DNA of 56,295 nt from a virus: IMG/VR virus record IMGVR_UViG_3300036832_000712, positions 1 to 56,295 of that record; one strand, given 5' to 3'. Position 1 is the first letter of the stretch. Each line of letters starts with the position of its first letter. Positions 7,889 to 48,447 of the stretch are shown here, piece after piece. The notes beneath the pieces are model-generated. The model worked only from the letters and a program-made list of their open reading frames with translations. It made no database searches and had not been told where the DNA came from. The position numbers and the translations under genes are program-made.

Positions 7889-8017
7889 ATGAGCCGGAGT
7901 GCCGCACGTGATCTTGCCGATCGCCTTGAGGCTGGCGAGCCGGTCATCAGATCGGCGGATGAAAAGCGGCTGATCGTCGCCGCACTCAGATACTACGGGC
8001 GGCGCGACGTGCGCTAG
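7889..8017 (+). CDS. Short ORF, 42 residues, end of virion operon
   Basis: Encodes MSRSAARDLADRLEAGEPVI and 22 further residues, ending RYYGRRDVR. Its composition is protein-like (amphipathic helix, basic end), but no strong ribosome-binding site is visible. It would be the last gene of the plus-strand cluster, and its TAG overlaps the TAG of the opposing primase-helicase gene in one CTAG. Unknown function, moderate certainty that it is translated. Confidence 0.5.
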   Translation: MSRSAARDLADRLEAGEPVIRSADEKRLIVAALRYYGRRDVR

Positions 8018-10914
8018 GACTTCTTCTTGAACTCGACGATCTTCCGAGACTCGTCGTCAGGTGCGTCAGGCGTGCTCGGTACGGCGATCGGCGACGCCGT
8101 CTTTATTGGAATTACAAAGCACAGAATCGGACTGCTCAAGGTCCGGTTCTCTGCCCGCATGCGCTTTTTTACGGACCTGTGTGTGATGCGTCCGGCCGTC
8201 TGGAGGTTGTCGAGTATGCTGCTGTAATCGTGGTGGTGCTGATTGCAGTAGTCTCTGAATGGCCCGGTGCGCACATACACCTCTGCCTTGGATATTTCGT
8301 ACCGTGCCTTGAACTCGACGTGAGGCGGCGCGTATAGCACCTCAGGTTCGTTCCTGGTGTTCTTGTCGACACGACAGATATTCGGATTGATCTCTTCCAG
8401 GTACTCGTTGAGAATCGTCTCCGGCGTCGTATGCTCACGCTCAAGCTTGGCTTTGTTTCTCATAGCCGGTATCTGCACGTCTATGAGCCACTCGCGCATG
8501 AGCTTGTAGCTGAAGGGGAAGTACCCCAGCTTGTTGCCTAGCTTGAGTCCCAGCAATGCAGTGGCGGCGCAGGCGGTCGCGAAGCGCTCTTCTTGACTCG
8601 CGTTTATGTCTGCTTCGAATCGCTGCTGGATTTCGAGGAACTTGCCGCCCACGACTTCGGTGTGGGGCAGACAACGGCATAGAAAATCTTCTCCGATCCA
8701 GCCGTAATTCCTCAGGAGAAGCCGCATGGCAGTGTCGGCTTCTACCTTCGTATGGACAGCATTCCTGCTTACTCTGATCTCGAAGACGCGCATGATGCCG
8801 GCTTGGCCGCCTGAACTGTCGGCGTTGACCATCTGCACCAGCGACTTGTTGCTGGTGCAGAGAGTCAGGTTTGATTTGTACCCGCCACGAGCCTGACGAA
8901 AGTCGCGGTTGGATTTCAGGCTGGTGTACGACCCCGGCTGGCTGGCCGAGAGTGCGATCTCGTGCGCCACGTCGTCTTCGAACCGTGTAATCTCGTCGAC
9001 GATGAATGGCAGGTTACGACAGATCGCGCCGCGCTCCTGGCGGCCTTTGTCTGTGCTGTTCGATCGCAGGCCGCTGATGCAGTAAAGCTCTGGATGCCCC
9101 CACAGGCTGGCGGCGAAATACACACCGGTACTCTTTGATGCGCCGGTATCCCCGGTCAGGCAGACCAGCATGCCGTGCAGATTCGAGTATCTGAAAAATG
9201 GCGTCGCCAGCGAAGCGCAGATGGCGAACTGCTGCGCCATGTACTCCGGGGCATTGTAGAACTCCATGAGCGCGATCTGCTGGCTCAGGCTGCCCATATG
9301 GTTCATGCTGTCAAGCTGAGTATTCTTTGTCATTACACACGGGGTGATCGAGCCGTCTGCGATCGAGATTTTTCGACCGTGCATGACAAAATATTCCGGG
9401 GTCCCAAGTTCTACCGGCTTCTCGGTCTCGGTTAGTTCCTGAGGGGGGACTTCCCATCCGACGTAATCGTATTGACCGAGATCGTTGGTGTATCTTCGCA
9501 GCTCCTTGAGATACGCCTGCATGAACGTGTGCACTGGTTTGAGCTGCTTCGGAAGAATGATGACGTCCTTGTTGCGAAGCGCCGATGCGAGAGTCTTCGG
9601 CTCCAGGTCGGCATTCAGGAGTTCAATCATCTTCCAACCTTCGCGTGGAGTTTTGACGTACCAACGTGAAAGGCAGTTCTCGTTGAAGGTCGCCCTGATC
9701 CACTGTACAGGAAACATCGGGTATTCGTAAATCCAACCATCCTTCTTTGCCTTGACTCCGTAGGTCATGTCCAATGTGTAAGGCGCCGGTGGCGGGCATG
9801 GCGGTGTTACATTTTGTAATACCGCAGACGCAGACGCAGGCGCAGGTTGATGCGCTCGTTCATAGACTAAGTTAGCGATCAGGACAGGATTCTTGGCGAG
9901 GTCCCTGAACGGACATCTATCGCAGATCGCCGGATCACCGCTGTTGTGGTCGATCTTCTCGCACCCCGGCGGGGGAAGTACCCAAGCGTCGAGCTTCTCT
10001 TGGGTCTCTTCCCGGGTGTAACCCGGATGGCCGTTCGACCACTCCTGGGCTTTCACCTCGCCGTCGTCGCAATATTTTACCGTGCCAATGCCGACATGCC
10101 ACTGCGGCTCGCGCACGTTCCCCTGGCTGTCCCTGAATATTCTCATATGCTCGCAGACGTCAGCGACTTCGTCGGCCGGCGGGCGGCGGCCGTCCCAGGC
10201 GACGGAGAGCTCTGGTCTGCGCGCCTTCGCGCTGTGGGCTTCGCCCGGGGCATCGGGCGCCAGGGTGGCAAGCTGGGCCAGCAGCTCTGCTGCTGGCGTC
10301 ACCACACCTTCGGCAAGGATTACCACCTGGCGCGGGTAATCGTGGTCCTTGAAATTGAACGTGCCGGGTACGCGCAGCACGCTGCTCTGGTCCGTGGTGC
10401 GCATGGGGTCGACGTGCAGATCATGTTGCTGAGCCAGCCAGCGCAACCGACCCGCAGGCTCGCGCCAAGCCAGAGATTCGATCGATGTGTCGATCACCCA
10501 GTAGACATGGATACCGTATCCCGAGTCTACGATGAACGGAGATGGCAGGCAGGCACTGAACAAAAATTTCTCTAGTGCATTAAATATATCCTGCTTGGTA
10601 GCGTAGTGATCCTTCGGGCCTCCAGCGTCGATGTCGAAAAAGAAAACACGAGCTTCCCGCATGTTCTCGTGGGTTCGGAAAGTCTGGAGCTTCCCGGTGT
10701 CTGGATTCGCTTCACGCGCGACTCTCAGCGCGTGTGGCGCAAAATATAAATCTTTCGTTTGCTTCTTTGTCAGGACATAAGCTATCGCGTCATCGAGCGT
10801 GTCGCATCCTCGATGCGCCATGACCGTCTTGCCATCAGGCTTCATCCACGGAGTGGCGATGCAGTAGGGACCGCGCTGCGGCCACACTGCACTCAAGAAC
10901 TTGCGCGTGTTCAT
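8014..10914 (-). CDS. Primase-helicase (AEP-type primase plus P-loop helicase)
   Basis: 966 residues. The N-terminal part has primase-polymerase signatures: FFFDIDAG (catalytic D94, D96), SGYGIHVYW (H136) and RVPGTFNFK (181-189). A Cys-containing segment follows (about 318-335, CEKIDHN...CDRC). The C-terminal half has Walker A GDTGASKSTG (588-597) and LPFIVDE (Walker B, D640 E641), as in the DUF927-like helicase half of phage replicative proteins. It should unwind the fork and prime synthesis for the polymerase at 17111-19027. AGGAG lies 9 bases before ATG, overlapping the stop of a short upstream ORF. A degenerate palindrome lies within codons 366-372. Confidence 0.85.
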   Translation of the reverse strand: MNTRKFLSAVWPQRGPYCIATPWMKPDGKTVMAHRGCDTLDDAIAYVLTKKQTKDLYFAPHALRVAREANPDTGKLQTFRTHENMREARVFFFDIDAGGPKDHYATKQDIFNALEKFLFSACLPSPFIVDSGYGIHVYWVIDTSIESLAWREPAGRLRWLAQQHDLHVDPMRTTDQSSVLRVPGTFNFKDHDYPRQVVILAEGVVTPAAELLAQLATLAPDAPGEAHSAKARRPELSVAWDGRRPPADEVADVCEHMRIFRDSQGNVREPQWHVGIGTVKYCDDGEVKAQEWSNGHPGYTREETQEKLDAWVLPPPGCEKIDHNSGDPAICDRCPFRDLAKNPVLIANLVYERAHQPAPASASAVLQNVTPPCPPPAPYTLDMTYGVKAKKDGWIYEYPMFPVQWIRATFNENCLSRWYVKTPREGWKMIELLNADLEPKTLASALRNKDVIILPKQLKPVHTFMQAYLKELRRYTNDLGQYDYVGWEVPPQELTETEKPVELGTPEYFVMHGRKISIADGSITPCVMTKNTQLDSMNHMGSLSQQIALMEFYNAPEYMAQQFAICASLATPFFRYSNLHGMLVCLTGDTGASKSTGVYFAASLWGHPELYCISGLRSNSTDKGRQERGAICRNLPFIVDEITRFEDDVAHEIALSASQPGSYTSLKSNRDFRQARGGYKSNLTLCTSNKSLVQMVNADSSGGQAGIMRVFEIRVSRNAVHTKVEADTAMRLLLRNYGWIGEDFLCRCLPHTEVVGGKFLEIQQRFEADINASQEERFATACAATALLGLKLGNKLGYFPFSYKLMREWLIDVQIPAMRNKAKLEREHTTPETILNEYLEEINPNICRVDKNTRNEPEVLYAPPHVEFKARYEISKAEVYVRTGPFRDYCNQHHHDYSSILDNLQTAGRITHRSVKKRMRAENRTLSSPILCFVIPIKTASPIAVPSTPDAPDDESRKIVEFKKKS
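9804..9822. promoter_or_regulatory. Dispersed palindrome, degenerate copy in primase gene
   Basis: GTGTTACATTTTGTAATAC. One half-site is perfect, the other has one change (TGTAATAC). It lies inside the primase-helicase gene, where it encodes VLQNVTP on the minus strand, the same frame as the copy at 16891-16909. Confidence 0.6.
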
Positions 10915-11056: not shown

Positions 11057-12202
11057 TTACTCGTCGTCCCAATCCTTGAGGATGGTATCGAGGGCCGGCG
11101 ATGCAACAGCGGCAGGAGCAGCAGGAGCCCGACCTGCCGCAATAGCAACAGCGGGCTCTTCTTCCTCATCGTCTATCACAGCAGCTTTGCGCGCCGCCGC
11201 GGCAGCGGCAGCCGCTTCGGCTTTCTTGTTAGCTGCTGTCTTGGCCTTTGCGGATGCAGATGCTGGCGTAGTTGCAGCAGCTGCAGGGGCAGGTGCCGGT
11301 GCAGCGGCAGGCGCCGGTGCAGCGGGCCTAACGGGTTGCTGTAGTACCATTTCCCCGTCGTCGTCATCGTCGGTCTCCTGTTCGTCTTCCTCGGTGATGC
11401 CAGGCGGGCGCGTGCCGGCGAAGCCGGTGAAGTCGGTCTTAAGCAGATCGTCGAGATTGCCTGATTCGGCGATTCCCGCACACACCGCCGTTTCCTCTTC
11501 GCTCAACCACCGGCCCGGCGAGAACCACAGCTTCGGGTAGCTCTTGGTATTGTCGAAGCGAATCCTCGTGGTCAGTGAGTAGGTGAACGGCACCGCCTTC
11601 GACTTGAGGAAGTTGAGATAGTTGGTGAACGCGAACATCATCTTGGCCTGGGCCTCCTTGTTCAGGCCATCGAAGTCGGAGGTCTGCGGAATCTTCAGCC
11701 GCAGCACCGGCGCCGCGCTGAGGTCGCGGGCCTTTGGAATCACCGCCAGATTACGATGCACGGCGCAGGCCGCGGCGGCTTTTCCTTGGTCTGTTTGACG
11801 TGAGCCCTTGATGGCTTGCGGGCAGACGTTGCACTTTTCTGATTGCCGATTAGTCGCGTTCGGGCTCGATGTAACTCCGTCATTGGACCAGCAGTCCGGC
11901 GCGCTCTCCTGGCCCGGATCGTAGGCACGTCCACCATAGTAGGCGCGTCCGCGATTCTCGTTGTAGGCAATGATCACGGCCTCGAAGGTCTGGATCAGCT
12001 CTTCCTCGCCATCGGCGTTGACGCGCATCAGCGGCTTCTTGGTGCCGTCGATGATCACGGTCCACACCTTGCCCGGGAAGGTCAGGGCGTTGACCTGACT
12101 GCGGGTCACGATGTTGCTGGTCCCGGCTTCCTGAGCCGCCTTGACGTGTGCCGGCACCTGAGCTGCCGGATCGAAGATAGCCACAGACTTAGTGGTAGCC
12201 AT
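11057..12202 (-). CDS. Single-stranded DNA-binding-like protein
   Basis: 381 residues. The N-terminal 270 residues look globular, with a Cys cluster (CWSNDG, CNVCPQ, ACAVH around 104-150) that may bind zinc. A long Ala/Pro-rich linker (about 285-365) follows, and the protein ends LKDWDDE. An acidic, aromatic C-terminal tip after a flexible linker is the hallmark of phage and bacterial SSBs, which use it to recruit polymerase and helicase. The position between SNF2 helicase and primase fits. No OB-fold motif can be confirmed by eye. Confidence 0.6.
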   Translation of the reverse strand: MATTKSVAIFDPAAQVPAHVKAAQEAGTSNIVTRSQVNALTFPGKVWTVIIDGTKKPLMRVNADGEEELIQTFEAVIIAYNENRGRAYYGGRAYDPGQESAPDCWSNDGVTSSPNATNRQSEKCNVCPQAIKGSRQTDQGKAAAACAVHRNLAVIPKARDLSAAPVLRLKIPQTSDFDGLNKEAQAKMMFAFTNYLNFLKSKAVPFTYSLTTRIRFDNTKSYPKLWFSPGRWLSEEETAVCAGIAESGNLDDLLKTDFTGFAGTRPPGITEEDEQETDDDDDGEMVLQQPVRPAAPAPAAAPAPAPAAAATTPASASAKAKTAANKKAEAAAAAAAARKAAVIDDEEEEPAVAIAAGRAPAAPAAVASPALDTILKDWDDE

Positions 12203-12278: not shown

Positions 12279-12297
12279 GTGTTACATTATGTAACAC
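12279..12297. promoter_or_regulatory. Dispersed palindrome GTGTTACA-TTA-TGTAACAC
   Basis: Perfect 8+8 half-sites. Lies 7 bases beyond the stop of the gene at 12305-12742 and upstream of the SSB-like gene, flanked symmetrically by G and C. Confidence 0.85.
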
Positions 12298-21593: not shown

Positions 21594-22031
21594 TCAGTTG
21601 ATCCGTATCGCGTCAACCACCCCACGCTTTATGCGCTTAAGCAAAGATGACGGGTCGGTACCCATATGTTCGGCCCACTCACTTAGACATTTACGTCGGC
21701 CTTTGATTTCGTAAATGACGTTCTGCCGTGTGTTGCGTGCTTGCTGAAGTGGAGTCACCCAACGACAGTTGGATGGGAAATACCCACGATCATTGTCGCG
21801 CCGATCGATACACATACCGGCCGGCGCTTCACCCATGTCGGCAAGGAAATTGGCAAACAAGTCCCATCGTTTGCAAACTTTTATTCCTCGCGCTCCATAC
21901 TTACGCCACCACGCGGCATTGGTAGTCGATGCACACCGAGCACGCATCCCTTTCCAAATGCGATACGTCCGTGTACCGCAACCACCGTGTCGATAGTTAG
22001 GATTGCGTTTTCCAGGGTAGGTCCTAGGCAT
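21594..22031 (-). CDS. HNH-family homing-type endonuclease
   Basis: 145 residues. [53 protein letters not shown] and QQARN follow the conserved Cys/His/Asn pattern of phage HNH endonucleases; a C-terminal helix-turn-helix-like CLSEWAEHMGTDPSSLLKRI may bind DNA. A paralog lies at 39814-40320 on the same strand. The start overlaps the VWA gene by 8 bases. Likely a mobile gene inserted in the MoxR/VWA cluster. Confidence 0.8.
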   Translation of the reverse strand: MPRTYPGKRNPNYRHGGCGTRTYRIWKGMRARCASTTNAAWWRKYGARGIKVCKRWDLFANFLADMGEAPAGMCIDRRDNDRGYFPSNCRWVTPLQQARNTRQNVIYEIKGRRKCLSEWAEHMGTDPSSLLKRIKRGVVDAIRIN

Positions 22032-23178
22032 CGACAGTGATCCTTACAACTCCAGCCCAATCGGGACACGTCGCGTCAGTCGTGCACCCGATGATGAGAG
22101 GGTAGGGTGTAGGGCTTTCAGGCCAGGGTGTATAAGCATCAGTCAGAAGCAGCACGACCTCAGGACTGTACTGCTCCGCCACATACTGCAGCGGCTTCCG
22201 CATGTCGGTGCCACCACCTCCTTTAGGGTGCAGAATCACCTCGTTGCCGTCCTCGAACACGTCGACGTTCGAGCACTCGGCATCGTCGGCCCAGATCACG
22301 CGCACGGTCATCGGCTTGATGACGGTGACGATGTGGTTCACCGCAACAGCTATCCTTTCGAATATCTCCTTGGTGAACATCGAGCCAGACGAATCAGCCA
22401 CGATGGTCAGCTCGTCCATGCCGTTGCTCCTGCGACTCGGCAAATAGATATTGCTGTACCGGCGATTGCGCCTGTTCCAGCTTTCGTCTTGTGCAAGACA
22501 GGCAGTCATGTAGTCGATCAGTACCTGCTCCCATGGCACCGGGTCCTCGTAGGTCGCGCCGACGATGGCCGCCAGCTCGCCCGGCATGACGCCATGCTGG
22601 CGGGCTATGGCGCTCGCCCGGGCCAGGGTCTTGTTGATGTGGTGCTCGATCGCCGCCGCCTGCTCGGGCGTGGCCGCCGGGACCGGCCGCAGGTCGCCGC
22701 CCAGGCCGCCCTGCCCAGGACCCTGGCCCTGCCCCTGCCCTTGTCCAGGCTGCCCCTGCTTCCCGCCCTGCTGCTCCAGCAGGGGGTAGATTTGCTCCGC
22801 GGTCATGCCGCGGTACTTGGGATCGATGAGCGCATACTGCCAGATTTTGAACTTGAGATCGTACAGCATGATGTTGATGGCGTAGTCGCAAGCCTTGTTC
22901 CAGCGCTCATGATCGCGAGAACCACGCCGTAAACCATGCTTGAGCAGTATGTGCATAAGTTCGTGGATAACTACGAACTTGGCGGTCGGGATGTCCAGCC
23001 CCTCGATGAAGGCCGGGTTGTAGCCGATGACCGTCATGTCGGTCCACGCTGTCGCGCAGGTCGGGTCCTCGACGAACGGAGTCTGCAGCAGGGCTGCTGC
23101 AAAGAACATAAGTTCTTTTACTTTTACGAGACTCGCTCTCGCAGTTTCCATAACAGAGAGTTGCTGTTGTCTTCTCAT
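22024..23178 (-). CDS. Metallopeptidase-like VWA protein (DUF2201-type)
   Basis: 384 residues. The N-terminal domain has VVIHELMHILLKH (HExxH, 72-76) in a putative zinc peptidase fold; a Gln/Gly-rich linker (138-162) follows; the C-terminal part is a von Willebrand A-like domain with ADSSGSM (262-267, MIDAS DxSxS) and GGGGTDMRKPL (MIDAS Thr), ending with VVLLLTDAYTPWP. This layout partners MoxR ATPases. With 24983-26065 and 20264-21118 it forms a phage MoxR-VWA-DUF3150 module. Confidence 0.85.
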   Translation of the reverse strand: MRRQQQLSVMETARASLVKVKELMFFAAALLQTPFVEDPTCATAWTDMTVIGYNPAFIEGLDIPTAKFVVIHELMHILLKHGLRRGSRDHERWNKACDYAINIMLYDLKFKIWQYALIDPKYRGMTAEQIYPLLEQQGGKQGQPGQGQGQGQGPGQGGLGGDLRPVPAATPEQAAAIEHHINKTLARASAIARQHGVMPGELAAIVGATYEDPVPWEQVLIDYMTACLAQDESWNRRNRRYSNIYLPSRRSNGMDELTIVADSSGSMFTKEIFERIAVAVNHIVTVIKPMTVRVIWADDAECSNVDVFEDGNEVILHPKGGGGTDMRKPLQYVAEQYSPEVVLLLTDAYTPWPESPTPYPLIIGCTTDATCPDWAGVVRITVDA

Positions 23179-24982: not shown

Positions 24983-26065
24983 TCAGTTCGAGGTATAGAC
25001 CTCGCGGTACTTCTTCACGTAGTCCATGTACGCATCGGCATCAAAGAGAGTGGCGTCCCGCGCGGTGGCGAGCTGCCACGCCATGACGACGAACTCCGCG
25101 GTGAACCGCTTGAGGTACATGTGCAGCTTGTCCACGTTGCCGAGCGTCATCTTCTCGGACACGTGCATGGCGGTCGCGTACTTGATCGAGAGTTCTTCGG
25201 GCACCGGGTACTTGTCGGGCGCCGCGAGAATCTTCTCGATATTGGGGAGGCTCTGCCAGACGTCAACGTGAGCCAGGAACTGCACTGCCGGCCCTTCACC
25301 GATAGCGCCGATCATGGCGGCCTCCTTGATCTCCGGCGTAAGGCGCTTGTCCTGCCACAGCTCGGCCGCGGTGAACCAAGTCCTTGGCGTGGCCACGATG
25401 GCCTGGGTCTTCTTCGGGTCGTAGGTGTTCACCAAGTCCGCGCAGAAATTCCAGAACGAGAGAAACACTTTGGGCACGCCTTGACTCTGCGCATAGATGC
25501 AGAAATCGTCTAGCGAATTGATCGCCTCGACGTGGATCAGCCGGTTGTTCAACGGCATGGGTAGTTTCTTGGCTAATGCCTGATCGTCTAGGAGATTGCC
25601 GGCCAAGAGCATGCGCACGTTGGGCTTCAAGACGTGCTCACCGATGCAGCGATTCAGCACAAGCTGCTGCATCACCGCAAAGACATCGTTCTTCGCATCA
25701 GGCGCTTCGTCGAAGAAAACAACGATGAGCTTGTCATCTGGAAAACTATCATTCCCGATGAACGGCATGGTACCTGGCGGATACCAGACCGTCGTTCCTG
25801 TCTTTTTGTCGGCCTGAGGGGTACCGCGCATATCGACGGAGTCGTACTGAGAGAGCCTGATGTCGATCAGGAGCGTGCCCGTGTAGGGGCAGTCTTTCCC
25901 GAGCAGCGCCTTGAGCGCCTCGGGGCTGTCGAGCTCGTCAACGGCCTGCTCGACACCTTGACTCTTGCCGATACCAAACCGGCCCCTGACGAGGATCGGC
26001 TTGTCGAGACGCACCACTATCTCTTTAACGGTGGTCTTGAGTTGAGAGATAGAAAGCTTCTTCAT
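24983..26065 (-). CDS. MoxR-like AAA+ ATPase
   Basis: 360 residues. Walker A GRFGIGKS (29-36 region), YDSVDMRGTP, LIVVFFDEAPDA (Walker B, D119 E120) and MLLAGN (sensor 1) are in MoxR order, with the short lid typical of this clade. MoxR ATPases remodel proteins together with VWA partners; the partners here are the HELMH/VWA protein (22024-23178) and DUF3150 protein (20264-21118). Palindromes flank the gene on both sides. Confidence 0.85.
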   Translation of the reverse strand: MKKLSISQLKTTVKEIVVRLDKPILVRGRFGIGKSQGVEQAVDELDSPEALKALLGKDCPYTGTLLIDIRLSQYDSVDMRGTPQADKKTGTTVWYPPGTMPFIGNDSFPDDKLIVVFFDEAPDAKNDVFAVMQQLVLNRCIGEHVLKPNVRMLLAGNLLDDQALAKKLPMPLNNRLIHVEAINSLDDFCIYAQSQGVPKVFLSFWNFCADLVNTYDPKKTQAIVATPRTWFTAAELWQDKRLTPEIKEAAMIGAIGEGPAVQFLAHVDVWQSLPNIEKILAAPDKYPVPEELSIKYATAMHVSEKMTLGNVDKLHMYLKRFTAEFVVMAWQLATARDATLFDADAYMDYVKKYREVYTSN

Positions 26066-27884: not shown

Positions 27885-28105
27885 CAGTTAGCCAGTTCCC
27901 AATCGGTCGCCAGCAGGTCGGTCTGCGAGCACAGCCACGGCACCAGATCACCTTGCGCAGTGAACATATAAACGTAAGGCAGCGTCATCTTGGAGTGCTC
28001 ATCAGGGGATTGTAGCTCCAAGTACATGTACTTGCCGTTCCAGCCCGAGCGGCGTACACGTTTGCCGTTTTGTATTGATTTGACCGCCCAGCCGATGCTG
28101 TTCAT
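27884..28105 (-). CDS. tad2: Tad2-family (DUF2829) Thoeris anti-defence protein
   Basis: 73 residues. GWAVKSIQNGKRVRRSGWNG KYMYLELQ, PDEHSKMTLPYVYMF, GDLVPWLCSQTDLLATDWEL reproduce the DUF2829 pattern almost throughout. DUF2829 proteins include Tad2, which binds the signalling nucleotide made by Thoeris TIR proteins and so blocks abortive immunity. Whether this copy binds the same ligand is inferred. It is preceded, ATGA-coupled, by the Acb2/Tad1-like gene at 28102-28323. Confidence 0.85.
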   Translation of the reverse strand: MNSIGWAVKSIQNGKRVRRSGWNGKYMYLELQSPDEHSKMTLPYVYMFTAQGDLVPWLCSQTDLLATDWELAN

Positions 28106-28323
28106 GCTGTAACTCCCTTCACGGCCCACATGGCCGCGTCCTCGAAATGCGTCTGGGCAAGGGAAAACAGGCGGATCGCCTCGCCGCTGGTGGTCTGCTT
28201 CTTGAAGTCCTCGCATAGGTCGATCAGATCAGCGGCGCGCATCTTGATGTTCTCGACGTCTTGATTGGCGCTCGGATTGAACGAAAGCCGCACGCGGGAT
28301 TGTCCTAACGTCTGCTCGGTCAT
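28102..28323 (-). CDS. Acb2/Tad1-hairpin-like anti-defence protein
   Basis: 73 residues. SRVRLSFNPSANQDVENIKM then AADLIDLCEDF and LFSLAQTHFEDAAMWAVKGVT. The two-helix layout with an AQTHxExAAMWAVK helix matches small phage proteins of the Acb2/Tad1 hairpin type, which sequester cyclic di- and trinucleotides of CBASS systems. Family assignment is by pattern memory and less secure than Tad2. Coupled to Tad2 by ATGA, so the pair forms a signal-sponge cassette. Confidence 0.65.
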   Translation of the reverse strand: MTEQTLGQSRVRLSFNPSANQDVENIKMRAADLIDLCEDFKKQTTSGEAIRLFSLAQTHFEDAAMWAVKGVTA

Positions 28324-28417: not shown

Positions 28418-28993
28418 TTACACCTGACGAGCGTTCTTCTCTTGGCGTTTGCGACGACTCAGCCATCCCATCAGCCCGAGACCGCCAGCGAACAGTGGCA
28501 GGGCAGCGGGGAGCGGCGTGGTCTCCAGCTGGAAGTTGGACTGGCCGATCGGGCCATTGACCCCGGATGCCTGGAGCTCGAAGAAGTAGTCCACCCCGGC
28601 CATCAGGGACACCACGTCGGTGTTGTTGTTGGCGGCGAAGTTGCCGGCAACCACCGTGCCGTTGACAGTATCCCGGGTGATCCTGAAGATTTCAGCGACG
28701 AAGCTCGGCAGATCGTTCGCCGGGTTGTTGAGCACGTCGACGTTGACCAGGGTGCCGTTGGCGCCGGATACAGTGAACTCGACGAAGTCGCTGAGGAACG
28801 ACGGCGCCGTGGTCGACTGCAGCGTGCCGGCAAGCTCGGTCGGGCTGACCGCCCCGACCGTTCCCTGCGACGGCGCAGGGCCAGTAAATGACAGCCCGTT
28901 CTGGACCAGATTGATGGTGGCGGCGTTAGCGGCGGTGACCATTAATCCCAGAGTCAGGGCAGCGCCGGCAGCGAGAAGGCTTCTCATAGTCAT
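28418..28993 (-). CDS. Secreted protein with PEP/VPLPA-CTERM-like tail
   Basis: 191 residues. Signal peptide MRSLLAAGAALTLGLMVTAA NA (start at 28993 or, three residues later, 28987), a Ser/Thr/Asn-rich beta ectodomain with many N-glycosylation-like NxT sites, and a C-terminus TPLPAALPLFAGGLGLMGWL then SRRKR: sorting motif, single membrane helix and basic cluster, as in exosortase substrates of Gram-negative bacteria. Such a protein in a phage would need the host exosortase for anchoring. A second one is at 32618-33256. Function at the surface unknown. Confidence 0.8.
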   Translation of the reverse strand: MTMRSLLAAGAALTLGLMVTAANAATINLVQNGLSFTGPAPSQGTVGAVSPTELAGTLQSTTAPSFLSDFVEFTVSGANGTLVNVDVLNNPANDLPSFVAEIFRITRDTVNGTVVAGNFAANNNTDVVSLMAGVDYFFELQASGVNGPIGQSNFQLETTPLPAALPLFAGGLGLMGWLSRRKRQEKNARQV

Positions 28994-32617: not shown

Positions 32618-33256
32618 TTAGGCTAGAGCTTTGCGGCGGCGCGTGAGCCAGCCCATGAGGCCCAGTCCGCCGAACATCAGCGGCAGCGATGCCGGCAGCG
32701 GCGTGGCCACCAGCGGTCCGGCCACGTCGATGCGGTAGTGCTCGTAGTCGGTGATCTCGCCAGTGGCATCGACCAGCGTCAAGAGGTTCATGGTCTCGCC
32801 GTTGATAGCGGTGAGGGTGAAGCCTGATTGCGCGTTGGCGGTGATCTGACCGAGGTCGATGTTGAAAGTGCCATCGGTGGCCTGCACGATGGCGTGCACG
32901 TCGCCACTTCCCTTCAAGCTGAACACCTGCGTCGAGGTGGTCAGCACCTGGGTGTCGGAGGTGTTGGAAAACACCTCGATCTGAAGATCAGATGTGTTGG
33001 AGATTTTTATGTCGTTGCCATTGGCGGCGCCGGCGAACAGTGAATTGCCGGAGAGGTCACTGAAGTTCACCACGCCAGTGTGCTGGCCATTGAACTGGCC
33101 GATAGCGAGGCTGCCGGCGAAGCTCTCGAAGGTGACATTGTCGCCGGTGCCCGAGAGCATGGGGCTCATGACGACGTCGGCATGCGCTGTTACGAGCGCC
33201 ACCGGCGCGAGCGCAAAAGCGCAGGCGAGCGTGAGCGCGAGCAGGGTCTTACGCAT
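32618..33256 (-). CDS. Second secreted protein with PEP/VPLPA-CTERM-like tail
   Basis: 212 residues. Signal peptide MRKTLLALTLACAFALAPVA with AHA cleavage area, then a beta-rich ectodomain (VTFESFAGSLAIGQFNGQHT, SDTQVLTTSTQVFSL), and the tail TPLPASLPLMFGGLGLMGWL then TRRRK. The tail nearly repeats that of 28418-28993, although the ectodomains differ. Leader GGGAACC before ATG is preceded by eight TTGG units and a dispersed palindrome at 33314. Host exosortase would be needed to process it. Confidence 0.8.
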   Translation of the reverse strand: MRKTLLALTLACAFALAPVALVTAHADVVMSPMLSGTGDNVTFESFAGSLAIGQFNGQHTGVVNFSDLSGNSLFAGAANGNDIKISNTSDLQIEVFSNTSDTQVLTTSTQVFSLKGSGDVHAIVQATDGTFNIDLGQITANAQSGFTLTAINGETMNLLTLVDATGEITDYEHYRIDVAGPLVATPLPASLPLMFGGLGLMGWLTRRRKALA

Positions 33257-33269
33257 ATGCTTGGTTCCC

Positions 33270-33301
33270 TTGGTTGGTTGGTTGGTTGGTTGGTTGGTTG
33301 G
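33270..33301. repeat. (TTGG)8 tetranucleotide microsatellite
   Basis: Eight exact TTGG units in the untranslated leader of CTERM gene 2, between the palindrome at 33314 and the ribosome-binding site. Prone to slippage, so length may vary between phage particles. Confidence 0.9.
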
Positions 33302-33313
33302 TCGTTGATCAAG

Positions 33314-33332
33314 GTGTTACATGATGTAACAC
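33314..33332. promoter_or_regulatory. Dispersed palindrome GTGTTACA-TGA-TGTAACAC
   Basis: Perfect half-sites, between CTERM gene 2 and the stop of the Pro/Gly-rich gene at 33341. It is the first copy after a 6.5-kb gap spanning the accessory block. Confidence 0.85.
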
Positions 33333-33340
33333 CTGCCTGC

Positions 33341-33892
33341 TTACGTCTTGGGCCCACCCTCCGGCGGCGGCACGGCGATCGGATGCTCGGGATGGGGTGC
33401 CTGTGTCGGTACGTCCACCAGGAACCAGACGCCGCCGATGCCGGGGATGTAGACGAAGACCAGCTGCTTGACGCCGCCGGGACCGGAGACGCCCGGGATG
33501 TAGATCGGATGCGACGGCGTCAGGCCATTTCCCGGCTCCGGAGGCTGCTCGCCGGGAGGGATAGGAATCACGATGGGGTGGGTCGGCCGCGGATCAGTCG
33601 GTCCCCAGATGCCGGGCGGCTGGCCGGGACCAGGACTTCCCCCGGGCGCGATCGGCGGCATCACCCACGGGGGCAGCGAACCAGGGCCGCCCCAGATGCC
33701 CGGAGGCTGGCCTGCGGGTGGAGAGCCTCCTGGCGCGATCGGGTGGGCCGGATGTCCGGGACTCGGCCAAATGCCGGGCGGCGGACCACCCGGAGCGATC
33801 GGGTGCGCGGGCCAGCCGGGCACGCCGAAGCCGGGATCGACCGGGCCAGATGATCCGACCGGCAGGATGTAGGCTAGAAAACCGCTGCTCAT
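33341..33892 (-). CDS. Pro/Gly-rich repeat protein
   Basis: 183 residues. MSSGFLAYILPVGSSGPVDP then repeated PAHPIAPGGPPPGIWP-type units, ending with a beta segment KQLVFVYIPGIGGVWFLVDV. The PIAPGG..GIWG repeat occurs in small phage proteins. GGAGGACTCGAAA precedes the ATG. Function unknown; possibly a flexible adaptor. Confidence 0.6.
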   Translation of the reverse strand: MSSGFLAYILPVGSSGPVDPGFGVPGWPAHPIAPGGPPPGIWPSPGHPAHPIAPGGSPPAGQPPGIWGGPGSLPPWVMPPIAPGGSPGPGQPPGIWGPTDPRPTHPIVIPIPPGEQPPEPGNGLTPSHPIYIPGVSGPGGVKQLVFVYIPGIGGVWFLVDVPTQAPHPEHPIAVPPPEGGPKT

Positions 33893-33926
33893 TTTCGAGT
33901 CCTCCATGTGTTTGTGTGTGTATTTT

Positions 33927-34034
33927 TCAAGGAATAATTCCGACACCGGACCAGCGGTGCAGGATCGCCACCGCCAGCATGATTAGCACGAACGTGCCGA
34001 TTACGAAAACCCATAGTGGCACATGATTGCGCAT
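33927..34034 (-). CDS. 35-residue membrane peptide
   Basis: MRNHVPLWVFVIGTFVLIML then AVAILHRWSGVGIIP: a single hydrophobic helix with a short charged N-terminus. No strong ribosome-binding site; translation may be coupled to the upstream gene ending at 34042. Confidence 0.45.
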   Translation of the reverse strand: MRNHVPLWVFVIGTFVLIMLAVAILHRWSGVGIIP

Positions 34035-34041
34035 CTGACGA

Positions 34042-34302
34042 TCATGTTTCGTGATTCGTTAACGAAGCGGGAAATACGAAGCGGGCACGAATAGCAGCAG
34101 CGAGGTCGATGTCGCGCTCGGCAGCAAAGCGATCGGCCTGGATCACCAGATCAGCAAGAATTTCGCGCAGCGTGTCGAGGCCTTCCACGCGCTCCAGGCC
34201 AAGCAGGTGCATGAAGTCGGCGCGCGTGGGATCGTGTGGGACATCACGACTCAGCATGCTGGCTAATCTCAGTTCCGCGAAGGTTAGAGGTTTATCGTTC
34301 AT
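34042..34302 (-). CDS. Hypothetical helical protein, MazG-like C-terminus
   Basis: 86 residues. The segment EILADLVIQADRFAAERDID then LAAAIRARF resembles the last helices of MazG-like pyrophosphohydrolases, but the usual ExxE catalytic pair is not seen. Overlaps its upstream neighbour by 11 bases. Assignment tentative. Confidence 0.5.
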   Translation of the reverse strand: MNDKPLTFAELRLASMLSRDVPHDPTRADFMHLLGLERVEGLDTLREILADLVIQADRFAAERDIDLAAAIRARFVFPASLTNHET

Positions 34303-34516
34303 GCTGTTGCTCTAATTCCTGGACGCGAGTCCTGAGGATATCCAAGGTGATTCTGACGTAGCCGAGTATCTTGCGGGTAGCGTTCAGACTGGCCTCGGCG
34401 GCTGCCATAGCTTCCATGTCGGCGCGCTCGCGCTGAGTCAGTGTACGAAGGATATCGTTCAAACCAGCGAGTTCCTCGCGGGCTGCTCTGAGCGGGTTGA
34501 AGGTGTTGGCATTCAT
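34292..34516 (-). CDS. Coiled-coil hypothetical protein
   Basis: 74 residues, nearly all helical: AAREELAGLNDILRTLTQRE, RADMEAMAAAEASLN, LDILRTRVQELEQQHER. GAGG is 13 bases before ATG. Palindrome at 34557 lies 41 bases upstream. Unknown. Confidence 0.55.
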   Translation of the reverse strand: MNANTFNPLRAAREELAGLNDILRTLTQRERADMEAMAAAEASLNATRKILGYVRITLDILRTRVQELEQQHER

Positions 34517-34556
34517 TTTGTGCTCGCATCCTCGATGCTCGTCTATGTACTTTTTG

Positions 34557-34575
34557 GTGTTACATCATGTAACAC
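34557..34575. promoter_or_regulatory. Dispersed palindrome GTGTTACA-TCA-TGTAACAC
   Basis: Perfect half-sites, between the coiled-coil gene and the stop of the gene at 34584. Confidence 0.85.
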
Positions 34576-34583
34576 TTTTTAGG

Positions 34584-35198
34584 TTACTTTTTCGCTCTTT
34601 CAAGCACGTTGATGTTTTCCTGGGCACGACTTAGCGCAATGGCGTGAACAGTTTCCATTGCGATGGCGGATTGAAGCTGGTGGTTAAGTTCCCAGGCTTC
34701 GCCGGGGTCGCCGGTCAATGTGAGCATGTGAGTTAGTTTTCGTATGCGGGCTGCCTCGAATGCCTGGTGCTCCTTGTACCTGCCAACGTCTATATGCAGC
34801 TGGTTCAGTCTTTCTTCGTGTGATGAAGGTGCGGATGGCATGCTGTCGTACAGCCACGCCTCTAGCTGCTTGCGTACGCGGGTCGTGCTTGTGCTGATCT
34901 GCTTGGGCACAGGCATTATTTTTTCGAGCGTCTTGAGATCAGGCGCCAGCATTATTTTTTTGAGTGTTTGATGGAAGAACGTTGCAGGGTCCCACTGACG
35001 GGCTTTTTCCTGCAGGATTGCAAGCACTGTATTCCATTCGTGTGCACCCCTAGTTTTTCGCGCAGGCGCGGATTGCACGTTGCCTTCCTGGGCGGCGCTG
35101 AGCGCGCGCCAAGTGCACTGGTACACCGCTTTTTGGAGTGTCCAGTCATTGCAGCCGTGGTGCGCGGCGAAAAAATCAGTTAGAGAGATATCAGCCAT
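34584..35198 (-). CDS. Hypothetical early protein
   Basis: 204 residues. MADISLTDFFAAHHGCNDWT LQKAVYQCTWRALSAAQEGN is Cys/aromatic-rich; the rest is charged helices. First gene downstream of the four-module control region, so possibly a replication initiator or regulator, but no motif supports this. The CxxxxxxQxxxxC and HH spacing is not a known zinc finger. Confidence 0.55.
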   Translation of the reverse strand: MADISLTDFFAAHHGCNDWTLQKAVYQCTWRALSAAQEGNVQSAPARKTRGAHEWNTVLAILQEKARQWDPATFFHQTLKKIMLAPDLKTLEKIMPVPKQISTSTTRVRKQLEAWLYDSMPSAPSSHEERLNQLHIDVGRYKEHQAFEAARIRKLTHMLTLTGDPGEAWELNHQLQSAIAMETVHAIALSRAQENINVLERAKK

Positions 35199-35238
35199 GA
35201 TCTGAGGGTCCTTGGCATAGCAGATTGTGGTCAGCAGG

Positions 35239-35270
35239 GCCGCGCGTTTTCGTGATGGCTAACGCGCGGC
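35239..35270. other. Perfect 10-bp inverted repeat upstream of 34584-35198
   Basis: GCCGCGCGTT (35239-35248) and AACGCGCGGC (35261-35270) with 12-base loop, extendable by CAG/CTG. No T-run on either strand; may be a leader structure or protein-binding site. Confidence 0.5.
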
Positions 35271-35320
35271 TCTGCGCATAATCAGCTAACTACAATCCGC
35301 AGTCAATCCCCTCGAACAAA

Positions 35321-35346
35321 ACAAACAAACAAACAAACAAACAAAC
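35321..35346. repeat. (ACAA)6.5 microsatellite
   Basis: Six and a half exact ACAA units in the control region, near the inverted modules. TCGAACAAAACAA here also occurs at the promoter near 36970. Confidence 0.85.
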
Positions 35347-35409
35347 TCGCGAAAGCCACATACAGTGTGCCAGAACTGCTAAGTGGCTCAAATTACAACA
35401 CTTTTTCGC

Positions 35410-35557
35410 GGTGCCGTAATAAGTAGCTAATACCATTAGGATTTTAGCCCGGTGCACTTTGTGCAGATTTTTCTTTTTTGGTGCCGTTGTAAGTCATTGG
35501 CGGATATCAGCTATTCCATCGGTGCCAGATGTGCACTCAAAAAGTATACCCCCCTAG
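35410..35557 (+). repeat. Left arm of four-module inverted repeat (modules 1 and 2)
   Basis: Two direct 56-bp modules, 35410-35465 and 35480-35535, of the form GGTGCCGT-N2-YAAGY-N26-GGTGC-N3-WTGTGCA, separated by a 14-base T-rich linker and followed by ATACCCCCCTAG. Matched in reverse orientation by the right arm. Candidate replication-origin iterons or master operator. Confidence 0.85.
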
Positions 35558-35677
35558 AAATCTAGGTGTTACTATTTTGTTCTCATTATTCTCTATACTA
35601 TACTATACCTTGTTTTCTGAATAGTTATATATATGAGATGTTGCGGCACCGCGCACCGGACCCATGGTATACAAAAA
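35558..35677. other. AT-rich core between inverted module arrays
   Basis: 120 bp containing TACTATACTATACC, TTATATATATGAG and a half-site GGTGTTAC (35564), plus an inner GGCACCGCGCACC. Low melting stability and central position fit a DNA unwinding element. No gene. Confidence 0.6.
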
Positions 35678-35826
35678 CTAGGGGGGGTATTGTTTTCCAG
35701 TGCACATCTAGCACCTGTGGAATAGCTTATATATTCCAATAACTTAGCACGGCACCAAAAATAAAAAAACTGCACAAAATGCACCAAGCCGAGACTTTAG
35801 TAATATCAATAGCTTGGTACGGCACC
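35678..35826 (-). repeat. Right arm of four-module inverted repeat (modules 3 and 4)
   Basis: Mirror of the left arm: modules at 35701-35756 and 35771-35826 read on the minus strand, with identical 70-base periodicity and T-rich linkers; begins CTAGGGGGGGTAT. The spacer sequences have diverged while spacing has not. Confidence 0.85.
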
Positions 35827-35879
35827 AGCCTAAAACAGCCTCACACACAGAAACATGGTATGCGAGATCACACCAAAAT

Positions 35880-35910
35880 ATTATAAATTCGCTGAGACAT
35901 AAAATATAAA
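35880..35910 (-). promoter_or_regulatory. Candidate promoter into the module region
   Basis: Minus strand -10 TATAAT (35885-35880), poor -35 (TTTATA, 19-base spacer), immediately downstream of the palindrome at 35912. A transcript would cross the whole module region before the gene at 35198. Confidence 0.35.
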
Positions 35911-35911
35911 G

Positions 35912-35930
35912 GTGTTACATCATGTAACAC
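35912..35930. promoter_or_regulatory. Dispersed palindrome GTGTTACA-TCA-TGTAACAC
   Basis: Perfect half-sites in the 1.1-kb non-coding region, 27 bases upstream of a TATAAT on the minus strand. Confidence 0.85.
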
Positions 35931-36191
35931 GTTTTATAGCTTGGTGGATTTCGCGGCTGAGCCGTAAAAAATCCGTGTGTAACCTGTGACATATAACATA
36001 AGTTACATGCGCGCCGCGCGCGCATAGCGGTATGGTAATGCCGCGAGCACATTGTTCATGCAATGCAGACGTGCGTAGGTCGCAGCGTACAAGCGCTGTA
36101 CAGCGCCGTGAGCTCGGAGCGCCACCACCCTAGCGGCCGATCCATGAACGCGCGCCAGCAAGCTCCCTAGTGCGTCCTAGAGGCAAATAAA
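35931..36191. other. Gene-free segment of control region
   Basis: No plausible gene. Contains a 14-bp palindrome GCGCTGTACAGCGC (36093-36106), a GCGGTAT/ATGCCGC hairpin (36027-36044) and GC-rich GCGCGCC blocks. Consistent with non-coding origin or regulatory DNA. Confidence 0.5.
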
Positions 36192-36219
36192 AAAGCCCGT
36201 GCCTTGCGGCACGGGCTTT
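36192..36219 (-). terminator. Intrinsic terminator 1 for gene 36292-36909
   Basis: AAAGCCCGTGCC (36192-36203) pairs with GGCACGGGCTTT (36208-36219), tetraloop between; on the minus strand a TTTTTTATTT tract follows. Confidence 0.85.
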
Positions 36220-36246
36220 GGATAGTTGGATAGCAGGCAACAAAAA

Positions 36247-36270
36247 GGGGCGCGCCGATCGGCGCGCCCC
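36247..36270 (-). terminator. Intrinsic terminator 2 for gene 36292-36909
   Basis: Perfect 24-bp palindrome, GGGGCGCGCC-GATC-GGCGCGCCCC, followed on the minus strand by CTTTTTG. Lies between the stop at 36292 and terminator 1, giving a double stop. Confidence 0.8.
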
Positions 36271-36291
36271 TGGTAGTGTCGTGCGAGTTAG

Positions 36292-36909
36292 TTAGCGTGG
36301 CGCAGCGGCAAGCCAATCGCGCCACGCGGAGCCGCGATCGCCCACAAGCTTCGCTGCATACTTCTTCTGCATTGCGCTCATGGTCGAAACGAGTCGATTG
36401 AATGCGTCGAATACGTCAACGTCATCCTTGGGATTCACGATTTCATCGGCTTTGATAAGCCGTTGTTCGTGATTCTTGCGCTCCGCCTCTGCAGCCGCGC
36501 GTGCTACTTCAGCGTCTTGGTTTTCCGGCTTTGTGATTCCCGCCAATCGCTTGGCGCGCGATACTAGCGTACGCACCGCGCCCATAACACGCTCTTGCTC
36601 GAATGTGCGGTTATCGTCCGAATTGTTTTTCGGATTCATATGATTATACTTTTTCAGGCCGATTACGCGACGAGCTTCGACACGGTCATAGCCCATCTTT
36701 CGGACGTAATAGCCCTCTGTGAGAGCTTGCACCATATCGCCGATTGCCTTGTCATTAGCCTTGAACGTGACAAAGGCCTCTGTGAGCATGCCATCTTGGC
36801 CAGCGTAGTTCTTGCCGGCCTCGAACGCGATCTCACAAGCTTGTGCGACAGTCATCGGCGCAGGCGTCGTGCTCGCGAGCAAAGAAGACTTAACGTTAGA
36901 CTTGGCCAT
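36292..36909 (-). CDS. Monocistronic early protein of unknown function
   Basis: 205 residues. MAKSNVKSSLLASTTPAPMT, FEAGKNYAGQDGMLTEAFVTF, GYYVRKMGYDRVEARRVIGL and a basic RTFEQERVMGAVRTLVSRAK; the C-terminal third is helical with DAFNRLVSTMSAMQKKYAAK. No family recognised. Own promoter with 17-base spacer, adjacent palindrome, and double terminator isolate it as a one-gene transcription unit next to the control region: the arrangement of an immediate-early regulator, which is inference only. Helical basic regions could bind DNA. Confidence 0.6.
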   Translation of the reverse strand: MAKSNVKSSLLASTTPAPMTVAQACEIAFEAGKNYAGQDGMLTEAFVTFKANDKAIGDMVQALTEGYYVRKMGYDRVEARRVIGLKKYNHMNPKNNSDDNRTFEQERVMGAVRTLVSRAKRLAGITKPENQDAEVARAAAEAERKNHEQRLIKADEIVNPKDDVDVFDAFNRLVSTMSAMQKKYAAKLVGDRGSAWRDWLAAAPR

Positions 36910-36980
36910 AGTGTGTGTACCCTTCAGTAAATGCCCGGTATGGGCGTTGCGGCCGATGCACAATGCATCGAACAAAACAA

Positions 36981-37034: not shown

Positions 37035-37126
37035 GTTGCGCGCCCTGGAAAGAATTACTTGCACCTCCCCCCGGCCGGTAGAAGGGGGTAGACGCGAGTG
37101 AGGCCGCATGTTTGCCCATCCCCCAC

Positions 37127-37215
37127 ATAATTTTCCTGAAAATCCAACAAATCAAATTATATACTAAAATTTTTTATGTAAAATTTCTCCGTCTAAAAAA
37201 TTTTAAACCAATATC
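37127..37215 (+). promoter_or_regulatory. AT-rich divergent region, possible late promoter
   Basis: About 90 bases of A/T-rich sequence (CATAATTTTCC, ATTATATACT, ATTTTTTATG) just before the terminase small subunit. A TATACT -10-like element has no good -35. Likely regulated by a phage factor; no strong signal identified. Confidence 0.35.
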
Positions 37216-37248
37216 CCCACACGCACAACTCGTGTTAAAAGAGCACAC

Positions 37249-40608: not shown

Positions 40609-42156
40609 ATGAACATCCTCGACTACAAGCCGGCGCCGACGATCAAAGCGTTCATCAAGGACTTCCGCAGTCAGGCTTTATTCTATACCTGGATCGTAGG
40701 ACCCGTTGGCTCTGCCAAGACCACGGCTCTGTTCTTCAAGCTCATCTACATGGCGATGAAACAGTGCCCATCGCCGGATGGAATCCGGCGCACAAAAGCC
40801 GTGATCGTCCGTAACACGCTGCCCATGCTCAAGGACACAACGCTGGCATCCTGGGAGTATTGGTTCAAGGATGGCGTGGCCGGCGCCTGGAGCGCCACCG
40901 ATAAAATTTTCACGTTGCGCTACGGCGACGTGGAATGTCAGGTGCTGTTCCGCCCGCTCGACACGCCCGACGACGTCCGTCGCGTTCTAAGCCTTGAAAT
41001 TAACTTCGCCATTATCGACGAGTTCGTAGAATTGCCGAAGGCAATTGTCGACGCCTTGAGCGCTCGCTTAGGGCGCTACCGCCAGCCTGATGGCACACCG
41101 GTCACCATCTGGGGGATGTGGGGATCATCCAACCCCGGCACCGAGGACGTGTGGTGGTACGACTATCTGCATGGCCCCGCTGTTCGCAGATACAAGCGTC
41201 CAACGGGCATGCCGGTCCCGCAGATCGTTGCCGACTCGGTAGCGCCGACGTCGGACATCGTCGTCCCGACGACAACGTCACTGGAACCAATAGCTAGCTA
41301 TTATCATCAGCCCGGAGGGCTGTCTCCCGACGCAGAGAATTTGGAAAATCTTCCGGGAGGCGTGCAGTATTATCGCGACGCCATTGCAGGCAAGAGCACC
41401 CCTTGGATCAGGCAGTTCGTCGATGCTGAGTGGGGCTTCAGCATAGCTGGCAAAGCTGTCGTCTCCGGCTTCCGTGCCGATCTGCACGTGAGTCTTCCCA
41501 ACACGCTTCAGCCTAATCCCTACTTCCCGCTCATCGTCGGACTTGATCCGGGAATCACAGGATCAGCCATGATCATCGGGCAACAAGATTACGACGGCCG
41601 TATAAGAGTTTTCGCTGAGCTGGTGCAGGAGGGCATGGGGGCCGAGCGTCTCATCCAGGAACGGCTGCAACCTCTCTTGAGAAACAGATTTCCACAGGTG
41701 CCACGAGTTATCGTGGCGGCTGACCCGGCGGCTGCCTCTCGGCAACAGACCGACGAGCGTACAGTCGTCAAGGTCTTCCGCCAGCACTACGAAGTGGACG
41801 TCGAGTCCAACAACCGCCTTCCATTGCGCCTCGACGCCATCGACCACTACACCAACACCCTGGTGGAGGGCCGACCTGCTTTGCAGGTCGACCCGTCATG
41901 TCAAATTCTGATCCGCGCGCTCAAGGGCGGCTGGCGCTACAGCGCCGACTTGAAGCGCGAAACACTCCGCGGGCATGACCCAGAAAAAAACGCCTACTCC
42001 CATCCTGGTGACGCATTCGGCTACCTGTGCAGGTTTTTCCATCGTGACCGCCAGCGCGAGAAAAGATACTCTCTGCCCCAGGGCAGCCTGGCAGCCCGGC
42101 GCCAGGGCGCGCCGTGGCAGCAGCGGGGCGAGCGTAACAGCTATCACGTCAGGTGA
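40609..42156 (+). CDS. terL: Terminase large subunit
   Basis: 515 residues. Walker A GPVGSAKTT (31-39), Walker B FAIIDE (133-138, D137 E138), coupling-type GMWGSSNPG, then the nuclease domain: VGLDPGITGSAM (D313), VAADPAAAS (D372) and HPGDAFGYL near the C-terminus, in RNase H-like order. Packages DNA into proheads with the portal at 42397. The start ATG lies 8 bases after the previous stop. Confidence 0.9.
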   Translation: MNILDYKPAPTIKAFIKDFRSQALFYTWIVGPVGSAKTTALFFKLIYMAMKQCPSPDGIRRTKAVIVRNTLPMLKDTTLASWEYWFKDGVAGAWSATDKIFTLRYGDVECQVLFRPLDTPDDVRRVLSLEINFAIIDEFVELPKAIVDALSARLGRYRQPDGTPVTIWGMWGSSNPGTEDVWWYDYLHGPAVRRYKRPTGMPVPQIVADSVAPTSDIVVPTTTSLEPIASYYHQPGGLSPDAENLENLPGGVQYYRDAIAGKSTPWIRQFVDAEWGFSIAGKAVVSGFRADLHVSLPNTLQPNPYFPLIVGLDPGITGSAMIIGQQDYDGRIRVFAELVQEGMGAERLIQERLQPLLRNRFPQVPRVIVAADPAAASRQQTDERTVVKVFRQHYEVDVESNNRLPLRLDAIDHYTNTLVEGRPALQVDPSCQILIRALKGGWRYSADLKRETLRGHDPEKNAYSHPGDAFGYLCRFFHRDRQREKRYSLPQGSLAARRQGAPWQQRGERNSYHVR

Positions 42157-45999: not shown

Positions 46000-46015
46000 C
46001 CTCTAGGAGTTGAAC

Positions 46016-48006: not shown

Positions 48007-48447
48007 GTGGCTATCGCCGGCGTCACCGAGACTGCGATCCTGCAACTGATCTACACTGCCACCGCATGGGCGAACTATGCGGACAACGCCGCTAATAGCC
48101 CGCAGACCAACATCGCGATCGCGTTGCACACGGCCGATCCGGGCACGAGTGGCAACCAGGCGACCAGCGAGGTCGTCTATACGGGTTACGCGCGTGCGAG
48201 CGTAGCGCGTACGATCGGTGGGTGGACCGTGGTGGGTGTCGGCCCCGCGAACTGCTCGCCGGTTTCCAACATCACGTTCCCGGTCGGCGGCACGGGCGCG
48301 GGTGGAACCGTCACCAACTTTACCACAGGTAAGACCGGCGGCGGCGCGACACCGATCCTGTGGAGCGGCACGGTCACGCCGAATATTGTCGCCGGAGCGG
48401 GAGTCACGCCAGTTCTCACGACTGCAACAACTATCACGTTGTCATGA
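48007..48447 (+). CDS. Phage structural protein, tail-fibre/head-adapter type
   Basis: 146 residues from GTG. AIALHTADPGTSGNQATSEV VYTGYARASVARTIGGWTVV then beta-rich FPVGGTGAGGTVTNFTTGKT. The LHTADPG...ATSEVVYTGYAR pattern is a family seen among phage structural genes. Exact place in the virion unknown. Confidence 0.65.
   Translation: MAIAGVTETAILQLIYTATAWANYADNAANSPQTNIAIALHTADPGTSGNQATSEVVYTGYARASVARTIGGWTVVGVGPANCSPVSNITFPVGGTGAGGTVTNFTTGKTGGGATPILWSGTVTPNIVAGAGVTPVLTTATTITLS

Follow-up and report, generated by a model that had tools for sequence, protein, structure and literature searches.

The window analysed here, a 56,295-bp virus record in IMG/VR, comes from a soil-type tailed phage known solely from metagenomes. 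Its structural genes are podophage-like, with TerL at 40609, a head-tail adaptor at 42397 and a major head protein at 46010, and a set of replication genes runs leftward from a locus made up of an array of repeated modules. These genes encode a family-A DNA polymerase, an SNF2-type helicase, a PD-(D/E)XK nuclease and a PrimPol-DUF927 helicase. End repeats in three relatives (G008, G009 and G011) suggest closed genomes of 61–64 kb, and the window therefore represents most of a genome.

The array lies in a gap (35199–36291), called gene-free in the sequence-only reading, that holds no ORF of 80 aa or more. Its placement between divergent transcription units was mistaken, as both immediate neighbours are on the minus strand: the first leftward gene to the left (34584–35198), whose related N-termini adjoin the array in relatives, and a leftward gene to the right (36292–36975), which is kept beside the array in relatives. 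The divergence of early and late genes consequently sits at ~37.0–37.25 kb. Two strong terminator-like hairpins on the minus strand (36192–36271), which would halt leftward transcription ahead of the array, insulate the array and the gap on the right-hand side. A (CAAA)n / AAAC microsatellite (35318–35345) is found immediately left of the array.

A palindrome, GTGTTACATNATGTAACAC, occurs in 12 copies between 9804 and 37034 (expected 0.00), for example at 12279, 26093, 26836, 33314, 34557, 35912 and 37016, and several copies are located 28–77 bp upstream of leftward gene starts. It is probably the operator of an early-gene regulon; the copy adjoining the array (GTGTTACATCATGTAACAC, 35912–35930) is likewise a probable operator. 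Other palindromes take the same role in G011 (TTTGCGACATCTGTCGCAAAT), in G012 (CCAGATGAGACTGTCTCATCTGG) and in Pseudomonas phage Rollin (AAAAGGTAGYAAGTTACTACCTTTT).

Several further features of the window were recorded. A second AT-rich stretch (37120–37240), about as unstable as the array core, lies directly ahead of the putative small-terminase gene (terS); similar stretches exist in relatives, and it is perhaps a late promoter. The product of 27887–28216 is a Tad2-like protein of the Thoeris anti-defence family (Pfam E 2.6e-23). A conserved gene pair (22024–23178 and 24983–26065) encodes an ATPase (phrog_1297) and a DUF2201 metallopeptidase/VWA-like protein and looks like a MoxR-VWA type pair; in Rhizobium RHph_TM phages, genes annotated alike sit near each other. 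Weak PEP-CTERM / VPLPA-CTERM-like sorting tails, unusual for a phage, are present on two proteins (28421–28993 and 32621–33256) and may point to the host group.

Could the gap serve transcription rather than replication? A regulator bound to the modules might govern early and late promoters from here, as the location between the early (leftward) and late (rightward) blocks, the adjoining palindromic operators and one promoter-like site directed leftward out of the core (35572–35543) would allow. We consider such a control hub improbable. Promoter-like matches are at background level (4 against 3.0 ± 1.6 expected), and since the right neighbour is leftward and terminated ahead of the array, no rightward transcription unit begins in the gap. 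Moreover, the regulator's site seems rather to be the separate palindrome found at gene starts, and a hub would require neither a melting core nor mirror symmetry. The sequence-only reading had offered "candidate origin or master control region"; with promoters at background and terminators insulating the locus, the second term is unsupported, while the first is the best-supported reading.

Anatomy of the array

The array is built from four modules that match the proposed pattern GGTGCCGT-N2-YAAGY-N26-GGTGC-N3-WTGTGCA with 0 mismatches, at 35410(+), 35480(+), 35701(-) and 35771(-), whereas the runner-up site in the 56-kb window has 7 mismatches over the 25 specified positions. The 70-bp period and the 14-bp linkers, T-rich when read outside-in, were reproduced, as was the arrangement of modules 1 and 2 as direct copies and 3 and 4 as their mirror image (strands +,+,-,-). 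Module 1 (outer left, 35410–35465, +) runs from GGTGCCGT through a central IHF-type region, degenerate in this module, to GGTGC-N3-WTGTGCA. Module 2 (inner left, 35480–35535, +) holds the IHF core CAATGACTTA on the minus strand at 35490, module 3 (inner right, 35701–35756, -) the IHF core CAATAACTTA at 35737, and module 4 (outer right, 35771–35826, -) the full IHF consensus TATCAATAGCTTG.

Together, the modules form a left arm (35410–35554, +) and a right arm (35682–35826, -) of an inverted repeat. The arms are 145 nt long, 75% complementary without indels and 127 nt apart. This is the best ungapped inverted repeat of the window, with a score of 59 against 18 for the next and 12.5–15 under a Markov null (five simulated windows); a BLAST self-comparison had missed most of the inverted repeats. 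None of the 36 mismatches between the arms falls on the 24 positions of the GTGC elements, and all occur among the other 121 (Fisher p = 0.0006), a test that is partly circular inside the window, with the spacing confirmed independently in relatives. In all four modules the GTGC elements stand at 0/41/50, so that a short word recurs at fixed spacing at a single locus, as in iteron-type theta origins.

Between the arms lies the core (35555–35681). An AT-rich core had been described as 120 bp long; it is indeed present, but measures 127 bp and is merely 65% A+T. Its composition is asymmetric, with 76% A+T in the left 80 bp and 45% in the right part, and a putative duplex-unwinding element lies in the left half. 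The segment 35573–35632 ties for the least stable 60 bp of the window with the AT-rich stretch before terS, and in seven relatives (G001, G002, G003, G004, G007, G008 and G014) the core contains the contig's least stable 60-bp stretch. An easily melted A+T-rich region thus adjoins the repeats, a further attribute of iteron-type theta origins. The G+C-rich right part contains an extra inverted GTGCCG (35644–35649, -), present in some relatives too. A C-run (C6, 35549–35554, +; C8–C9 in close relatives) faces the core and a G-run (G7, 35681–35687, +) stands at its closing edge; both runs are kept in close relatives.

The centre of the module is an IHF-type site that the sequence-only reading overlooked, the YAAGY element being one end of WATCAANNNNTTR on the opposite strand. 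The full consensus WATCAANNNNTTR at 35804–35816 (+) is one of just two in the 56-kb window. The earlier suggestion that GGTGC pairs 41 bases apart indicate same-face binding by one protein takes no account of this site between the two iteron positions. Across eight contigs, a set that includes the near-identical G003/G004 and the close G007, 10 of 16 full-consensus sites fall in arrays, where ~0.1 would be expected. In a set of 30 deduplicated, largely independent loci, 24 sites (in 16 loci) are no more than 300 bp away from the AT minimum, and the rest of the 304 kb holds 11. Among 300 permuted motifs of the same letters, the mean near the AT minimum was 1.2 and the maximum 13 (a near-copy of the motif), and none reached 24. 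As regards the window itself the test is conservative, its subwindow minimum being the AT-rich stretch ahead of terS. As a consensus match, a site for a bending protein is therefore present, a feature common, not universal, in iteron-type theta origins. The letters between the half-sites are frequently TGGG, TGAC or TAAC, and a phage protein with a related site, rather than IHF, could conceivably occupy them.

An IHF-type site with short repeats on its flanks is also the design of P1 parS. A partition centromere of this type, in which IHF bends the DNA between ParB boxes, would share this layout, but no ParA/ParB family match above cut-off was found among the scanned phage proteins (a subset of ORFs), and the two mirror arms and the AT minimum are foreign to parS. 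We regard it as very unlikely.

Conservation and lineage-specific words

The exact module pattern, searched in all viral contigs, gave no match. The 56-bp module as written is therefore specific to the phage of the window, and relatives were sought through TerL and the putative TerS, yielding more than 100 loci. A looser pattern retrieved just already-known relatives and one chance match (L086), and a protein search with the right-hand neighbour gene produced no matches.

Many uncultured relatives have this layout as well, likewise placed between their early and late blocks and with words swapped by lineage; in most loci the array lies ~1.3–3.5 kb upstream of the putative terS gene. Among close relatives, giant inverted repeats occupy the array position in G008 (109 nt, 89%), G007 (49 nt, 86%), G001 (98 nt, 94%), G002 (26 nt, 96%) and L106 (100-nt arms, score 70). 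Genomes of the GTGCC type place their words at 0, (32/33), 41 and 50 bp, followed by C8–C9 and the core. The prediction that spacing would be conserved in relatives held, with GTGC at 0/41/49–50 in nearly all GTGCC-type arms (G008, G007, the right arm of G004 and the single available arm of G014; 0/40/48 in the left arm of G004). The doubled 70-bp module is peculiar to the window; in relatives a single complete module is accompanied by outer words. G001 and G006 have in common the inner box GTGCCACTAAAAATAACAACCC alone, and the two arms of G001 agree mutually at 91–94%.

Arms are more alike within than between genomes in the window (80 against at most 69), in G008 (90 against 82) and in G001 (91 against 64). 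G004 and G007 depart from this, their right arms agreeing at 94% across the two genomes. The pattern suggests that the two arms are occasionally homogenised within a genome. The length of the inverted repeat and this likeness in three genomes might also be expected if the hairpin itself, as a cruciform or as RNA, were the functional form. That explanation seems highly improbable to us: complementarity drops to 70–75% in the window and in G004 while the short sites persist, so pairing is not what is kept, and no Rfam match was found.

The core lies in the same orientation in 25 of 28 pairwise comparisons, including every clearly scored pair. This bears on whether the array, close to the small terminase, might serve packaging (pac) or recombination, or act as an invertible switch, possibilities for which the proximity to terS in most loci and the potential of inverted arms to recombine might speak. 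Yet pac sites are directional and the array is symmetric, no inversion was seen, and no integrase family match turned up among the scanned proteins, so we give this group of functions a very small chance. Inversion of the core was rejected on the conserved orientation across relatives.

More distant loci retain the layout with other words, namely AACAATCT in six copies (L169), AAGTATAC in ten (L154), AACTTGAC in seven (L153), CTTTACAC in five (L168) and ATCTGATG in five (L126). Lineage-specific repeated 8-mers surround the AT minimum in 16 of 30 loci at p < 0.05. In L153 and L126 the words are present and the full IHF consensus near the AT minimum is absent. At the equivalent place in Rollin (OR577172), TTTGCATAC repeats adjoin a TATATACAAAATAATAATAATAATAAGG stretch, with TTTGCATA repeats and an AT core at ~530–590, where the origin of this phage is accordingly predicted. 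The closest Rhizobium isolate phages (RHph_TM), in whose matching protein relatedness is confined to the N-terminal part, have nothing array-like at their divergent gap, which speaks against the origin reading.

Two side observations concern these genomes. Rollin (OR577172.1) is the nearest isolate by TerL and PrimPol-helicase, and its gene 32945–35917 is annotated as hypothetical only. Long tandem runs of CAGCCCG / CTGGGCGCTGCAGC-like units stand beside the array position in L028 (5350–5540) and L011 (1–120).

A candidate initiator and a putative origin

The leftward gene at 8014–10914 (-) encodes a 966-aa PrimPol-DUF927 helicase resembling SCCmec Cch and SaPIbov1 Rep. The protein matches DUF927 (E 2.6e-10), and a profile of 11 orthologues finds Cch (5dgk, 7.8e-12) and SaPIbov1 Rep (8tch, 1e-7) in the PDB. 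Overall confidence in the model of the whole helicase is low (pTM 0.43), and therefore fold-level matches alone were used; the best Foldseek matches are Cch and SaPIbov1 Rep, followed by PrimPol domains. The C-terminal 167 residues give a winged-helix-like model (pTM 0.63), for which Cch and SaPIbov1 Rep again come out on top as weak, marginal matches (E 0.04, prob 0.97–0.98). The replicon thus encodes a self-loading helicase of the DUF927 type, like those of SaPIbov1 and Cch.

SaPI Rep helicases use their C-terminal domain to recognise iteron origins, Cch, a DUF927 protein, is a relative of SaPIbov1 Rep, and Cch2 depends on its 5-nt iterons both to bind and to act as a helicase (PMC7581432). 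Given this likeness and mode of recognition, we infer that the helicase is the leading candidate for the initiator, and put the chance that it binds the iterons at about even. Its C-terminal domain shows no clear co-variation with iteron type, and the G001 and G002 helicases are closer to that of the window than the G008 helicase is, yet their arrays are the least similar. The gene is ~25 kb from the array, and the ~140 bp that lie downstream of it do not provide the adjacent origin seen in SaPIbov1/Cch-type replicons. The gene at 11057–12202 (-) encodes a conserved protein with an Ala/Pro-rich linker and an acidic C-terminus (DWDD), possibly a single-stranded-DNA-binding protein, judged from the tail alone.

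Taken on its sequence features, the array is very probably the replication origin of the phage, best read as a variant of the iteron/IHF/AT-rich kind. The proposed skew check did not point to it: the cumulative GC-skew minimum of the window is at 48140, ~12 kb from the array, and in relatives where it is measurable it lies 11–13 kb to the right. In a phage of 60 kb whose genes are strand-biased, GC skew says little in either direction, and a TA-skew switch is uninformative because it coincides with the change of gene direction. DnaA boxes, present in many plasmid origins, are absent from most arrays (one box, in G002 only) and are not required by self-loading helicase initiators.

A mechanism can be proposed on this basis. 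Each arm would carry iterons (GTGCC/TTGTGC words) in two modules bound by the initiator, with an IHF-type site parting one iteron from the iteron pair 41 and 50 bp away. IHF, assumed to exist in the host, or a similar bending protein would occupy this site and fold the module, so that the iterons at 0 and 41/50 meet. Two mirror-image initiator assemblies, one per arm, would then strain the core that the C/G runs border and open its A+T-rich left part. The initiator would be the PrimPol-DUF927 helicase, self-loading in the manner of SaPIbov1 Rep and Cch and ending in a C-terminal winged-helix-like domain. Two opposed hexamers would depart both ways, giving bidirectional theta replication, the PrimPol domain priming and the phage family-A polymerase continuing synthesis. 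More speculatively, and on balance doubtful, this may be a family-wide origin type in which mirror-image iteron-IHF-iteron modules load two opposed PrimPol-helicase hexamers on one core, words are replaced by lineage, and conversion keeps the arms alike, so that specificity shifts on both sides together.

For most uncultured phages the origins are unknown. Here three independent signs (repeat words, IHF-type sites and an AT minimum) converge and sit similarly upstream of the late genes, in phages with a likely initiator matching staphylococcal self-loading helicases. If the reading is correct, one protein and ~420 bp of DNA would make a compact, testable two-component system, and the three signs would allow origins to be located by a simple rule throughout this phage group. 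Arms alike within a genome, alongside words that differ between genomes, also raise the question of how an initiator might shift its specificity in step with a two-sided origin.

Comparison with known origins

In the herpesvirus oriL and the SV40 origin, mirror-image initiator sites flank an A+T-rich core that is opened by two helicase assemblies. The array shares the mirrored sites around such a core, whereas the proteins are unrelated and those origins have no IHF. The SaPIbov1 origin and Rep resemble the phage system in short iterons and in the helicase, which shares its fold and Pfam family with the likely initiator of the phage, and the SaPIbov1 iterons reportedly lie, in the account of Ubeda et al., on both sides of an A+T-rich stretch. 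In contrast, the phage helicase is joined to PrimPol in one protein, the iterons are grouped into IHF-centred modules inside long inverted arms, and the replicon is a whole tailed phage; the putative origin is ~25 kb from the initiator gene, whereas the SaPI origin sits just downstream of rep (PMC7581432). The putative SCCmec origins of Cch and Cch2 likewise combine a related helicase (Cch, 5dgk) with a short-repeat origin, but that of Cch2 consists of three direct iterons, with inverted repeats dispensable for binding and no IHF module.

Initiator repeats with an adjacent A+T-rich region are the common theme of origins, and IHF helps to open pSC101 and R6K (PMC5043065). The origins of pSC101 and R6K gamma thus share initiator repeats, an IHF site and an A+T-rich opening region with the array (PMC5043065), although their iterons are direct and not mirror-image, DnaA is needed and the initiator is no helicase. 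Lambda ori lies inside the O gene, with a one-sided AT region and no inverted arms, but has in common with the array a phage-encoded initiator, here the predicted helicase, and iterons that adjoin an A+T-rich region (PMC5043065).
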